Below are positions 3,394 through 33,971 of a stretch of DNA of 33,971 bases, in pieces. A program made the position numbers and the translations under genes. The DNA comes from Burkholderiales bacterium (lineage in GTDB: Bacteria; Pseudomonadota; Gammaproteobacteria; Burkholderiales; Burkholderiaceae_C): contig JAEMQF010000262.1 in assembly GCA_022758925.1 (NCBI GenBank), positions 1 to 33,971 on the forward strand. The letters run 5' to 3'. The notes beneath the pieces are model-generated. The model did not search any database and was not told the DNA's origin. It saw only the letters and a program-made list of their open reading frames with translations. Each line of letters starts with the position of its first letter. Positions within the stretch are counted from its first letter, which is position 1.

Positions 3394-3819
3394 ATGACGG
3401 ATACGATCAAACAAATGGCGCGAAGACCGGGAACGATGCGATTGATCGACGCGCTTCAATACCGATTGCCGCTTGCGGGTTGGGTCTCGATCCTGCACCG
3501 CGCGAGTGGCGCACTGATGTTTGTGCTGTTGCCCTTCATCGTCTGGATGCTCGACACCAGTCTCAGTACGGAGATCAGCCACAGCCAGTTCATCGCCCTG
3601 TTTCTCGGCGGCGTGGGTTTCCTTCCGGGTTGGGTTTTCAAGTGGGTCGCGCTGGCCCTGATATGGGCCTATCTGCACCACTTCATCGCCGGCTTGCGCC
3701 ACCTTTGGATGGATGCAACGCACTCGGTGGACCTGGAATTCGGCCGCCGCTCGGCCGTCGTGACACTCGCCCTCAGTGCCGCGCTGACCTTGCTGCTGGG
3801 GGCAAAGCTGTTCTTCTAG
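3394..3819 (+). CDS. sdhC: Succinate dehydrogenase cytochrome b556 subunit
   Basis: RLIDALQYRLPLAGWVSILHRASGALMFVLLPF...YLHHFIAGLRHLWMD; stop TAG lies inside CTAG at 3816-3819. Confidence 0.95.
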   Translation: MTDTIKQMARRPGTMRLIDALQYRLPLAGWVSILHRASGALMFVLLPFIVWMLDTSLSTEISHSQFIALFLGGVGFLPGWVFKWVALALIWAYLHHFIAGLRHLWMDATHSVDLEFGRRSAVVTLALSAALTLLLGAKLFF

Positions 3820-3978
3820 TACTGCGTTCCGCCAATGAGCTTACAAATGAAATCGATGCATTCGTTCGCCAGGCGAGGGGCTGGGCCTCAGGCCCAGCGC
3901 GGCCTGCAAGGCTTGCAACGACGCATGGCGGACGAAGGCGCGATTTCATGTAAGCGGTTTGGCGGAACGCAGTACTAG
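3816..3978 (-). repeat. CTAG-bounded inverted-repeat structured element, copy 1 (163 bp, short variant)
   Basis: CTAGTACTGCGTTCCGCCAA (3816-3835) is the exact reverse complement of 3959-3978; the imperfect arm continues inward (..TTAC(AA)ATGAAATCG..TTCG.CCGCCA). 59 nt at 3866-3924 equal the reverse complement of 23271-23329. Internal hairpin CTGGGCC-tca-GGCCCAG at 3881-3897. Confidence 0.93.
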
Positions 3979-3996: not shown

Positions 3997-4362
3997 ATGG
4001 CAGCAAAGAATTTCGGATCGAAACGCGTTGTCGTCGGCGCGCACTATGGCCTGCGTGACTGGCTGGCGCAGCGCATCACCGCAGCCTTGATGGCACTGTT
4101 CACGTTTGTCTTGCTGGCGCTGATCCTGTTCGGCGGTGAACTCAACTATGAGCGCTGGGCCGGCATCTTTTCGAAGCAGTGGATGCGCCTGCTGACCTTC
4201 AGCACCATCGTCGCGCTGCTGATCCACGCCTGGGTCGGGATGCGCGACATCTTGATGGATTACGTGCACGGCGTGCTGCTGCGCCTGTGCCTGCAAGTGG
4301 CCACCCTGGTCTGGCTGGTGGGTTGTGGCGGTTGGGCGGTCCAGGTGCTGTGGAGACTTTGA
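3997..4362 (+). CDS. sdhD: Succinate dehydrogenase membrane anchor subunit
   Basis: GAHYGLRDWLAQRITAALMALFTFVLLALIL...LIHAWVGMRDILMDYVH. Confidence 0.94.
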   Translation: MAAKNFGSKRVVVGAHYGLRDWLAQRITAALMALFTFVLLALILFGGELNYERWAGIFSKQWMRLLTFSTIVALLIHAWVGMRDILMDYVHGVLLRLCLQVATLVWLVGCGGWAVQVLWRL

Positions 4363-13455: not shown

Positions 13456-16095
13456 TTGAAACGAAGTACGAAATCTGCCAGGCGCTTCGTCTTGACCGGC
13501 GTCGCAGCGGCCGCGATGTGGGTGTCGGTTCCGCAAGCGTGGGCGTTGGGCCTGGGGCGACTCGCGGTGCAGTCGGCGCTCGGTGAAGCGCTGCGCGCCG
13601 AGATCGACGTGACAAGCCTGAGCCCGGAAGAAGCGACGAATATGCGGGTTCGGATCGCCACACCCGAGGCCTACAGGGCGGCCGGGGTCGACTACAACAA
13701 CGTGTTGCAGGGAACGACCGCGGCACTGCTGCGCCGGCCCGATGGCCGCCCCTATTTGCGCTTGACGAGCGAGGCGCCGGTTCAGGAGCCTTTCGTCGAC
13801 GTGATCATGGAGATGACCTGGTCGACCGGCCGTCTCGTGCGCGAATACACCTTGCTGCTCGATCCACCGCTTGCGGGCGGGGCGCAGCCTGCGATGGCCA
13901 CCGCATCGCCGGTCGTGACGGAAACGCCAAGCCCGCCTCCGGTTTCCCAGGCTGCAGCGCCTGCGCCCATGGCCATGCCCGCGCCTGCGCCGGAGGCGTC
14001 AGAGGCGCCAGAGGCGTCAGAGGCGCCAGAGGCGACGACTGCTGCGACGCCATCACCGGTCACCTCGACGCCCGCTGAGGCGCCGGCGCCGCTGCGGGTG
14101 AGCAAGCCGGAACGGGCTTCCGCACCGGCGCGCGCGATCGCGACCAAGAAGGTGGTCCAACCGCGGGCCCCAGCGGCGCAGAGCGCCGACGAATATGTCG
14201 TCAAGTACGGCGACACGTTGTCAGAGATCGCGGTCCAATACCAGCACCGGGGTGTTTCACTCGATCAAATGTTGGTGGCGTTGTTCAACGCCAATCCCCA
14301 AGCATTCGTCAACCAGAACATGAGCCGCATGCGCTCAGGGGTTGTACTCGCACTTCCTGGCGCCGAGTCGGCGAAAGACATTCCGGCGGCGCAGGCGCGT
14401 CAGGTGGTACAGGCACAAAGCGCCGATTTTGCCGCTTATCGGCAGCGCTTGGCCGGTGCTGCCGGGGTGGCGAAAACGGAAACTGCGTCGCGCCAGGCCA
14501 GCGGGCAAGTTCGAACCGCGATTGAAGACCGCGGTCCTTCGTCTGCGCCTACCCCCGACAAACTCACACTGAGCAAAGGCGCGGTCGCCGCGAAGGCACC
14601 GGCAATCGAAGACAGGATCTCGAAGCAAAGCGAAAAGAGGGAAGCTGACACGCGCGTGGCCGAACTGACCAAGAATGTCGAAGATCTGAAGAAACTCTCC
14701 GGCGCGGCGGCAGCAAAGTCAGCAGCCAACACCTCGGCGCGCGGCGCTGCGCAACGTGGCGTCGGCATTGCAGCGCCTCCGTCACCCAAGCTGGTGATTA
14801 CGCCTGCGCCGCCCCCGCCGCCAGCACCACCACCACCACCACCACCACCGCCGCCGCCGCCCGCGCCAGCGCCAGCGCCAGCGCCCGCGCCAGCGCCAGC
14901 GGCCGCGCCCGTCGCGCGGGCTGCTGCGCCCGCATCCGTGCCGGTTGGCGCGGCACCGTCGCCCAAGGCGCGTGCACCAACCGCGGTTGCGACAGGCGGT
15001 GAGCCTGGGGGAATGCTGGAATCGCTGATGGCTGACAACTCCTGGGCGCTTGCCGGGGGTGCGGGGCTGGTCGCATTGCTCGCCGGATTCGGCATTTATC
15101 GATTGACCAAGCGCGGCCGCAAGGACAACCGCGAAACGTCGTTCCTGGAAAGCCGGCTCCAGCCCGATTCGTTCTTCGGCGCCAGCGGCGGCCAACGCGT
15201 CGACACGCGCGCAGCCGGCGCGGCCTCCAGCTCGATGAGCTACTCGTTGAGTCAGCTTGACGCTATCGGCGACGTCGACCCGGTGGCCGAGGCCGACGTC
15301 TACCTAGCCTCTGGCCGCGACTTGCAGGCCGAGGAGATTCTGAAGGAGGCGATGCGCAGCAACCCCGAGCGCCTGGCGATCCGAACCAAGATGCTCGAGG
15401 TCTACGCGAAGCGGCGCGACACGAAGGGATTCGAGTCGCTCGCGTCGCAGCTGCACTCCCTGACGCAGGGGCAGGGCGAAGATTGGCGCAAGGCGCAAGA
15501 GATGGGCGCCGAGATCGACCCGGAGAACAGGCTTTACCTGCCCGGCGGGGAGCCGCAGCACGGGCACGGCCCGACCGGAACGATGGACGAGCCGCTTGGG
15601 GCGAGCACCATGCCGCAGTCGATACTGCCATCGGCGCCTGACTTTGACGTCCCCGGCACCGGCTTGGCAAGTACCGACGCCTACCGCCCCGACCGCACTG
15701 AAGACAACGGCATGCCCGAATTCTCGTCCGGTCTGTTGATGCCGGTCGATTCACCCGACGCACCACCGCCGCCAAGCGGCTCGAATTCGCAGCCGATGGA
15801 GTTCGATCTGTCGAGCATCACGCTCGACCTCGACGCGCCATTGCCACCCGCGTCAACCGCAAACGCCGAAGCCGCAAGCCCGCGCGATTCAAGCTTTGCC
15901 GACCTCGAACTGCGACTCGATGGCGATGAAGGGGGCAGTGACAACGACCCGATGGCCCGCAAACTCGAGCTTGCCGAGGCCTTCAGTCAGATTGGCGACA
16001 TCGAAGGCGCGCGTGAACTTCTGCAAGACGTGATCGCCAACTCCGAAGGCCCAGTTCGGGAGAAGGCGCAAGGCATTCTCGTCGGCCTGAATTGA
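13456..16095 (+). CDS. fimV: FimV/HubP-type LysM-domain polar/pilus assembly protein
   Basis: TTG start preceded by GGGAG; GLGRLAVQSALGEALRAEIDVTSLSPEEA, LysM-like YVVKYGDTLSEIAVQYQHRGVSLDQMLVALFNANP, Pro/Ala-rich linker, single TM, C-terminal KLELAEAFSQIGDIEGARELLQDV. Confidence 0.93.
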   Translation: MKRSTKSARRFVLTGVAAAAMWVSVPQAWALGLGRLAVQSALGEALRAEIDVTSLSPEEATNMRVRIATPEAYRAAGVDYNNVLQGTTAALLRRPDGRPYLRLTSEAPVQEPFVDVIMEMTWSTGRLVREYTLLLDPPLAGGAQPAMATASPVVTETPSPPPVSQAAAPAPMAMPAPAPEASEAPEASEAPEATTAATPSPVTSTPAEAPAPLRVSKPERASAPARAIATKKVVQPRAPAAQSADEYVVKYGDTLSEIAVQYQHRGVSLDQMLVALFNANPQAFVNQNMSRMRSGVVLALPGAESAKDIPAAQARQVVQAQSADFAAYRQRLAGAAGVAKTETASRQASGQVRTAIEDRGPSSAPTPDKLTLSKGAVAAKAPAIEDRISKQSEKREADTRVAELTKNVEDLKKLSGAAAAKSAANTSARGAAQRGVGIAAPPSPKLVITPAPPPPPAPPPPPPPPPPPPAPAPAPAPAPAPAAAPVARAAAPASVPVGAAPSPKARAPTAVATGGEPGGMLESLMADNSWALAGGAGLVALLAGFGIYRLTKRGRKDNRETSFLESRLQPDSFFGASGGQRVDTRAAGAASSSMSYSLSQLDAIGDVDPVAEADVYLASGRDLQAEEILKEAMRSNPERLAIRTKMLEVYAKRRDTKGFESLASQLHSLTQGQGEDWRKAQEMGAEIDPENRLYLPGGEPQHGHGPTGTMDEPLGASTMPQSILPSAPDFDVPGTGLASTDAYRPDRTEDNGMPEFSSGLLMPVDSPDAPPPPSGSNSQPMEFDLSSITLDLDAPLPPASTANAEAASPRDSSFADLELRLDGDEGGSDNDPMARKLELAEAFSQIGDIEGARELLQDVIANSEGPVREKAQGILVGLN
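13995..14036 (+). repeat. In-frame short tandem repeat encoding (S/P)EA units in fimV
   Basis: gaggcgtcagaggcgccagaggcgtcagaggcgccagaggcg, encoding EASEAPEASEAPEA. Confidence 0.8.
14804..14902 (+). repeat. Low-complexity polyproline / Ala-Pro tract in fimV
   Basis: PAPPPPPAPPPPPPPPPPPPAPAPAPAPAPAPAA encoded by (ccaccacc..) and (gcgccagcgcca..) arrays. Confidence 0.9.
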
Positions 16096-16141
16096 TGCCA
16101 CCGAGCTGAGCGCCGCAGCGGCGCGAAGCGGGAGCAAGCTG

Positions 16142-22719: not shown

Positions 22720-23220
22720 ATGAACCATTCAGGGGTGTGGCTCGACATCTTGCTCGGCGCGACGGTGCTGATCTCGATGACCGTCGGCATCATGCGTGGC
22801 CTGGTGTTCGAGATGCTGTCGGCGCTCGGCTGGGTGGCCGCCTACTTTGCGGCCCAATGGTTGGCGCCGAGTCTTGTGTCTTACGTTCCGGCCGAGGTCG
22901 CGGCTACCGGCATCAGGCGCGGGATCGCATTTGGCGTCATGTTTGTCGCCTTCCTGGTGGGCTGGGGCTTGATTTCGCGCGCGCTGCGTGCCGTGATTCG
23001 CGGCTCGCACATGAGCACCTCCGACCGCGCGCTGGGCGCGGCGTTCGGGATGGCGCGTGGCGTCGTGCTGTTGCTGGCGGTGGTCACCGTAATCCGACTC
23101 ACACCCTTGGCAGAAGCCGCGCCGTGGCGACATTCCAGCGCAGTGGCATGGTTGGAATCGGCGCTGCGCGGGCTCAAGCCGGTGCTGCCACGCGACGTCT
23201 CGCGCCACCTCCCGTCCTAG
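22720..23220 (+). CDS. cvpA: CvpA family membrane protein
   Basis: WLDILLGATVLISMTVGIMRGLVFEMLSALGWVAAYFAAQW; between dedD and purF; stop TAG lies in CTAG 23217-23220. Confidence 0.92.
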   Translation: MNHSGVWLDILLGATVLISMTVGIMRGLVFEMLSALGWVAAYFAAQWLAPSLVSYVPAEVAATGIRRGIAFGVMFVAFLVGWGLISRALRAVIRGSHMSTSDRALGAAFGMARGVVLLLAVVTVIRLTPLAEAAPWRHSSAVAWLESALRGLKPVLPRDVSRHLPS

Positions 23221-23464
23221 TACCGCGACCCAGAGATTTCGATACATGAAACCGCGTCTTCGGCCCGATGGCGTCGTTGCAAGCCTTGCAGGCCGCGCTG
23301 GGCCTGAGGCCCAGCCCCTCGCCTGGCGAGCGCAGTCCGCAGGGACTGCGCGCGTCCGGGCTCGGCCTCGCGATACCACGAGGTATCGCTGCGGTTTGCG
23401 CCTAGCCCTCGGACCGAATCCATCGCTTTCATTTCGTCTCGAAACCTCTGGGTCGCGGTACTAG
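23217..23464 (+). repeat. CTAG-bounded inverted-repeat structured element, copy 2 (248 bp, multi-hairpin)
   Basis: CTAGTACCGCGACCCAGAG-a-TTTCGA at the left pairs with TCGAAA-c-CTCTGGGTCGCGGTACTAG at the right; hairpins 23298-23314 (CTGGGCC-tga-GGCCCAG), 23330-23351 (GCGCAGTCC-gcag-GGACTGCGC), 23370-23389 (GCGATACC-acga-GGTATCGC); 59-nt identical core shared with copy 1. Confidence 0.93.
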
Positions 23465-23490: not shown

Positions 23491-25017
23491 ATGTGCGGCA
23501 TCGTCGGCGTGATCGCCAAAGACCCGGTCAACCAGTTGATCTACGACGCGCTGCTGTTGCTTCAGCATCGCGGCCAGGATGCAGCCGGCATCGTGACGAT
23601 GCAGGGCACCAAATGTTTCATGCACAAGGCGCGTGGCATGGTGCGCGACGTGTTTCGCACTCGCAACATGCGCAGCCTGCTCGGAGCAGTCGGCCTGGGC
23701 CAGGTGCGCTACCCGACCGCCGGCAGCGCCTACAGCGAAGAAGAGGCGCAGCCGTTCTATGTGAATGCGCCGTTCGGTATCGTGCTGGTGCACAACGGCA
23801 ACCTGACGAACGCCGCGGCGCTGAAGCGCGAGTTGATCGCCGTTGACCGGCGCCACATCAACACCGAAAGCGATACCGAGGTCTTGATCAACGTGCTCGC
23901 GCACGAGCTGCAGACCGCTGCGCAGGGGATAGCACTCACTCCCGACGCGGTGTTTCAGGCTGTGGGCGCGGTGCACAAGCGCCTCAAAGGGTCTTACGCC
24001 GTCGTCGCACTGATCGCAGGCCACGGCCTGCTCGCGTTTCGCGATCCTTTCGGAATTCGCCCCCTGTGTTTTGGGCAAGGCGAGGGCACAAATGGACCGG
24101 AATTGATGGTGGCCAGTGAGTCGGTGGCGATTGAAGGAACCGGCCACAAGGTGACCCGCGACGTGGCCCCGGGCGAAGCGATCTTCATCGACCTGCAGGC
24201 CAGGCTGCATGCGCGCCAATGCGCCGACAACCCGAGCCTGAACCCCTGCATGTTCGAGTTCGTCTACCTGGCCAGGCCCGACTCGGTGATGGACGGCGTG
24301 TCGGTCTATCAGGCGCGCCTGAACCTGGGGGAAACTCTGGCGCAGCGTTTGATTTCGACGCTGCCGCCGAACGAAATCGACGTCGTCGTGCCGATCCCGG
24401 AGTCGAGCCGGCCGTCGGCGATGCAACTCGCCCAGCGCATCGGCAAGCCGTACCGCGAAGGCTTCGTCAAGAATCGCTATGTCGGCCGCACTTTCATCAT
24501 GCCGGGGCAAGGGGTGCGCGCAAAGTCGGTGCGGCAAAAGCTGAACGCGATCGGCGTCGAGTTCAAGGGGCGCAACGTGCTGCTGGTCGACGATTCGATC
24601 GTTCGCGGAACGACCTCGAAAGAGATCATCCAGATGGCGCGCGACGCCGGCGCGCGCAAGGTCTACATGGCCTCCGCCGCGCCACCGGTGCGCTACCCCA
24701 ATGTGTACGGCATCGACATGCCCACCCACTCCGAGTTGATTGCGCACAACCGCACTGTCGAGGAGATTCGCAAGTTCATCGGTGCGGATGCGCTGATCTA
24801 CCAGGACGTTGCGGCGATGAAGAAGGTCGTCGCGGCGCTGAACCCGGCGATTCACGGCTTCGAGGCGTCTTGTTTTGACGGCGTCTACATCACGGGCGAC
24901 GTGACCGCGGACGACTTCGCGACGATGGCAGCGCAGCGCAGCGCCCAAGGCGAAGACGAAGACAACCCGGAGCGTTCGCGCCTGGTCTTGCAGGACACGG
25001 CGGAGCACGGCCCGTGA
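23491..25017 (+). CDS. purF: Amidophosphoribosyltransferase
   Basis: [36 protein letters not shown]...[12 protein letters not shown]...[37 protein letters not shown]. Confidence 0.98.
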
Positions 25018-33657: not shown

Positions 33658-33970
33658 CGAGAAACCGCAGTTGACCGCTTTCCCCCGCTGGCTACACCGC
33701 ATGAACACTGACATCCATACCCACGACGACCCTCACCTTTTGGGTGAGAGCGCTACGCACCCGATTGAGCCGCGCTGCGGCACGCTGGCCGCGTTGCTCC
33801 ACCTTGCAGGCCGCGCCAAGCCGGGGGCTTGGCCCTTCGCCAGGCACAGCCAGTCCACAGGACTGTCTGTGTCCGGGCTCAGCCTCGCGGGCACGAGCCC
33901 GCCGCGTCGTCGCGCCTTGCCAGCGCACCGCATCACGGCCCACTCGGGCGCGTCCAACTGCGGTTTCTAG
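33658..33970 (+). repeat. CTAG-bounded inverted-repeat structured element, copy 3 (313 bp, divergent)
   Basis: AAACCGCAGTTG (33662-33673) pairs exactly with CAACTGCGGTTT (33955-33966), flanked by CGAG / CTAG; hairpins 33732-33748, 33816-33832, 33846-33870, 33887-33902; conserved ccTTGCAGGCCGCGC and GTCCGGGCTCaGCCTCGC shared with copy 2. Confidence 0.85.
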
Positions 33971-33971
33971 G

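Follow-up and report, generated by a model that had tools for sequence, protein, structure and literature searches.

How can a mobile repeat lie across the stop codon of a gene in a compact operon and leave the encoded protein whole? The question arises twice in the window, by which we mean the entire 33,971-nucleotide stretch analysed here, contig C171 of a 4.6-Mb Burkholderiales draft genome (G000) assembled in 422 contigs. Both sdhC and cvpA end precisely where a short repeat begins, and the original prediction placed these boundaries exactly, with CTAG at 3816-3819 and 3975-3978 around the first copy and at 23217-23220 and 23461-23464 around the second. That prediction suggested that CTAG might be a recognition site or a four-base duplicated target, the latter being known for IS5-group elements. 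We arrive at a different division between target and element, and it is this division that is used in the following list.

3394-3819, + strand: sdhC, ending TTC TAG; its stop (3817-3819) combines the duplicated TA with element base 1
3817-3818: TA target duplication, left copy, element copy 1
3819-3975, + strand: element copy 1, 157 bp, tip family B, GTACTGCGTTCC...GGAACGCAGTAC
3976-3977: TA target duplication, right copy, element copy 1
3997-4362, + strand: sdhD, downstream neighbour of copy 1
22720-23220, + strand: cvpA, ending TCC TAG; its stop (23218-23220) combines the duplicated TA with element base 1
23218-23219: TA target duplication, left copy, element copy 2
23220-23461, + strand: element copy 2, 242 bp, tip family A, GTACCGCGACCC...GGGTCGCGGTAC
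23462-23463: TA target duplication, right copy, element copy 2
23491-25017, + strand: purF, downstream neighbour of copy 2

A family of short repeats without a transposase gene

Counted between the TA dinucleotides, each window element carries GTAC at both its start and its end. The inner part is common to the two copies, in opposite orientation, and the whole of each element folds into an extended hairpin whose stem has the stop codon at its base (z = -12 for copy 1 and -13 for copy 2). Searches with core and tip sequences recover at least 24 copies in the genome, falling into tip families A (GTACYGCGACCCAGA), B (GTACTGCGTTCCGCC) and D (GTGTGGTGCGCCAG); the tips pair inside each copy and differ among families. 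These elements of 157-242 bp are repeated at many sites and contain no internal transposase gene, and the full-length family-A copies all match over an equal length of ~242 bp. Several contigs terminate within an element copy. Scanning the genome_contigs collection with the family-A tip gave no match, and a literature search on the core sequence turned up nothing relevant. The solitary tip on contig C285 might have marked an autonomous copy, but this reading was rejected, since no paired end lies nearby.

Three further observations concern the same genome. Between lipB and lipA (L061:1699, contig C339) only a short tip remnant, CTAGTACTGCGACCC, is found, at the lipB stop. On contig C139 (L130, ~16090-16122) a minus-strand gene has a copy near its end, and its last dozen or so codons apparently now consist of element sequence. 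Window positions 33663-33971 hold a different repeat family (AACCGCAGTTGACCGC... ...GGTTTCTAGG) that reaches the contig end; it has a stretch resembling the element core, and two of its copies look flanked by 5-bp duplications.

The target, its duplication and the probable IS630 connection

The division between target and element was settled from 40 scored element ends, the totals being a hand count from the copy table. The inner G is kept in all 40, TA stands outside it in 30, and C is the next base out in 36. Where TA has been lost (10 of 40 ends), it has mostly become TG or CA, CTAG having decayed to CTGG or CCAG, and these losses blur the duplication. The prediction that these elements insert at CTAG is thus borne out, both by the 36 ends with C outside and by the TA flanks at both window copies. 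CTAG does indeed stand on both sides of most copies, IS5-group elements use CTAG-like targets, and elements of other genera carry the same inner core with IS5-looking tips (GGCAACGCTGAACAAGTCCCT, as against GGAAGGTGCGAACAAGTCCCT in E. coli IS5) and apparently with 4-bp NTAA duplications, so that an IS5-group miniature duplicating a 4-bp CTAG target had some appeal. The copies that decide the matter are those whose target was not CTAG. With slashes marking the element boundaries, two of these lie in this genome, C391 (CTA/G...C/TAC, target CTAC) and C406 (CTA/G...C/TAA, target CTAA), and two in relatives, L180 (CTA/G...C/TAA, target CTAA) and L199 (TTA/G...C/TAG, target TTAG). A 4-bp duplication, which demands equal 4-mers on the two sides, fails in all four, since the left and right 4-mers are CTAG and CTAC in one copy, CTAG and CTAA in two, and TTAG and CTAG in the last; the fourth base is independent of the target. 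All four are accounted for by a duplicated TA around an element whose first base is G and whose last is C. Because these copies keep G...C whatever the target, the outer G and C are the element's own. IS5 duplicates 4 bp and the window elements duplicate TA, and the tips of the CTAG-type copies match the ends of IS630, not of IS5. We therefore reject the 4-bp IS5 model for the CTAG-type copies, and an IS5-group origin for them now appears very improbable. The best reading is that the target is CTAG, that only its TA is duplicated, and that the outer G and C are part of the element.

The likeness to IS630 begins at the first base. A search for DDE_3 (PF13358) in the draft of 422 contigs finds one IS630 transposase, and the home element that carries it is flanked as C-TA/GTGTCATG...ATGACAC/TA-G, the same target as that of the repeats. 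Family D tips match the right end of this home IS630 at 18 of 28 positions, ungapped from base 1, family A tips match a home IS630 end at 16 of 28 in register, and family B tips match the ends of the IS630 of another genome, G027, at 15-16 of 28, again in register (best shuffle p 0 to 0.0006 with 5000 shuffles, uncorrected for 54 comparisons). The terminal inverted repeats thus resemble the ends of the home and G027 IS630 elements, to which they are similar and not identical. The draft genome yielded no autonomous IS630 whose tips are exactly those of family A or B, the home IS630 ends being related but different, and among the IS630 copies of relatives that were checked for identical tips all were related and none identical. 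Repeated IS elements are often missing from draft assemblies. The reading frame of the home transposase (L066:1380-2560, contig C396) appears to be shifted over its initial stretch, and the gene has an eight-base T run at ~2067; either the frameshift is programmed or the sequence contains an error.

Tenzen and Ohtsubo reportedly stated the CTAG preference of IS630 in the title of their 1991 paper, which PMC2170065 cites. Duplication of TA is established for IS630-family elements, IS630 and ISY100 among them (PMC2170065). The elements described here share the TA duplication with both and the CTAG preference with IS630, and differ from them in lacking the transposase gene that IS630 and ISY100 carry. 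We consider it highly probable that the repeats are non-autonomous IS630-type (Tc1/mariner) elements that insert at the TA of CTAG, and that the copies which happen to be harmless, at stop codons, are those that survive. From the resemblance of the tips we infer that an IS630 transposase moves them in trans.

How the stop is rebuilt can be read from the junctions. Miniature elements (MITEs) moved by a transposase of the IS630 family (Tc1/mariner superfamily) encoded elsewhere would insert at the TA of CTAG and double only the TA, giving C-TA/G...C/TA-G. Read on either strand such an element starts with G, and TA plus G makes TAG at both junctions. When an insertion splits a TAG (or TAA) stop at its TA, whichever the strand, translation therefore still ends at that codon and the protein is unaltered. 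A CTAG-stop gene keeps TAG in its original place because the empty site reads TA plus G and the junction reads TA plus the element's G. This is what the original prediction proposed in its claim that insertion regenerates the stop, and that claim holds at both window copies, where sdhC and cvpA are whole genes terminated by TA + G. In one relative (L183, genome G010) two convergent called genes both terminate exactly at the element.

It had further been predicted that the empty site would prove to be a single CTAG at the stop codon. For sdhC the comparison covered 299 genomes of the same family, all from other genera. The sdhC-sdhD pair was matched in 287 of the 299, and the best alignments mostly cross the junction uninterrupted, without the element; in the closest relatives sdhC ends at the same residue, with the same C-terminal KLFF, and stops with TGA. 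At sdhC, then, the relatives do not show the predicted CTAG. Another genus does show it, at the site of a related element: in G042 a gene on the minus strand has a 159-bp CTAG-type element at its TAG stop, and the sister species G369, with 94% identity in this region, has a single CTAG and no element. The same empty-site result was obtained in three sister species for L184, a TAA-type element of G004. Searches within the genera of G015 and G051 yielded no usable empty site, and that for G013 a single ambiguous one.

Stop codons and the CTAG background

The frequency with which copies sit at stops was judged with a small home-made gene caller, for which 577 kb of this genome served as training sequence. 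One end coincides with the TAG stop of a called gene in 12 of 24 copies, or in 10 of 15 when both flanks are readable; a copy on contig C76, assessed by eye, is a possible thirteenth. The called genes are genuine: those that end at copies outside the window have a Pfam match in 9 of 10 cases, LipB, CdsA, peptide deformylase, an acyl-CoA ligase and an EAL protein among them. In the same 577 kb, unoccupied CTAGs number 27 at stops, 63 between genes and 24 within genes, as compared with 127, 744 and 4633 for all unoccupied TA dinucleotides. Stops thus make up 14.6% (127/871) of unoccupied non-coding sites for any TA and 30% (27/90) for CTAG, and the observed share of 50-67% lies above both the 15% expected from any-TA targeting and the 30% expected from CTAG targeting. 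CTAG as a whole is depleted in this genome, with 159 occurrences against ~432 expected in the 577 kb sampled.

That the concentration of CTAG at stops accounts for the whole coincidence, with zero excess, is a proposal to be taken seriously: nearly a third of the unoccupied non-coding CTAGs are stops to begin with, and 12/24 against 27/90 gives only p = 0.057. On the other hand, the copies with both flanks readable depart from this background (10/15 against 27/90, p = 0.008), as does an independent set in relatives (9/23, counted by eye, against 7/45 unoccupied, p = 0.033). Pooling this genome with the relatives gives an odds ratio of 4.0 and p = 0.0011, or p = 0.006 when counted more conservatively; one of the tests used 13/25 where 13/24 is correct, which makes it slightly conservative, and the size of the excess depends on how one-ended copies are treated. 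A complete absence of excess is accordingly somewhat unlikely. The enrichment at CTAG stops that had been predicted is real, and a good part of it is CTAG background, since genes seldom contain CTAG internally and often end in it. Most, though probably not all, of the stop coincidence follows from the CTAG target, and an excess over the CTAG background is likely, though modest.

What might produce this remainder? CTAG is rare in genes, and in frame NNC-TAG is possible only as a stop, so that stops would form a large share of the harmless targets. Copies landing there would survive, mostly between co-directional genes, and insertions within genes would be lost. All 11 of the occupied stops that could be judged do lie between co-directional genes, as against 16 of 26 unoccupied CTAG stops, in keeping with the idea that these elements land safely inside compact operons. 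The same 11 of 11, taken with the stop excess and with the very stable hairpins that place UAG at the stem foot (z = -12 and -13), might also suggest that the repeats are retained at stops for a useful role, for instance in shielding the end of the mRNA or in uncoupling the gene that follows. We think such a role quite unlikely, as the cvpA copy has no intrinsic terminator, U-run or promoter-like match, the copies are dispersed among unrelated genes, others occupy non-stop sites, and relatives with the same operons lack the element. Survival of harmless insertions, as opposed to active targeting, is the most likely source of the stop excess.

One core, several ends

Many relatives, Burkholderiales-type to judge from their gene content, have elements of 160-163 bp in which this core (TTGCAAATCCTCGC-hairpin-GCTGCGGTTTGCGCC) is joined to different tips. 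In one group (L203 and L184) the tips, GGCAACGCTGAAYAAGTC, are similar to the terminus of IS5 from E. coli (GGAAGGTGCGAACAAGTCCCT) and are bordered by apparent 4-bp NTAA duplications. L178 and L202 likewise combine the core with IS5-like tips and apparent NTAA duplications, and some of these four elements lie at TAA or TGA stops. It appears that one core is carried by the ends of two transposase families. A more ambitious and decidedly tentative extension, which we regard as unlikely, would see here a Burkholderiales-wide hairpin family with one core and exchangeable ends, IS630-like (TA/G) or IS5-like (NTAA), in which the end base and target together restore TAG or TAA, such that landing at stops would be a favoured niche and not a by-product.

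Several known repeats bear comparison. The RUP element of pneumococcus inserts at TA and has ends in common with IS630-Spn1 (PMC2229807). Like RUP and the Correia/NEMIS elements of Neisseria, those described here are short and non-coding with inverted-repeat ends; unlike them, they prefer CTAG, have an end base which, joined to the target, rebuilds the TAG of a gene stop in about half the copies, and share their inner core with elements bearing different tips. For the BOX repeats of pneumococcus, 36 genes are described whose stop codon lies inside BOX, with no clear truncation, and restoration of the stop by target duplication is not stated in the portion of that account drawn on here (PMC3049150). 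BOX differs from the present elements in its ends and in its modular make-up. What seems to be new is the explicit stop-rebuilding rule, together with its frequency set against an appropriate background and a core common to elements whose ends differ.

Taken together, a target that is rare in genes and common at stops, and an end base that rebuilds the stop, amount to a simple and testable rule for the spread of a mobile element through a gene-dense genome. Such junctions are also a place to seek hidden repeats, as gene callers detect no fault there. Finally, the shared core with the ends of different transposases raises the question of how miniature elements switch from one transposase to another.
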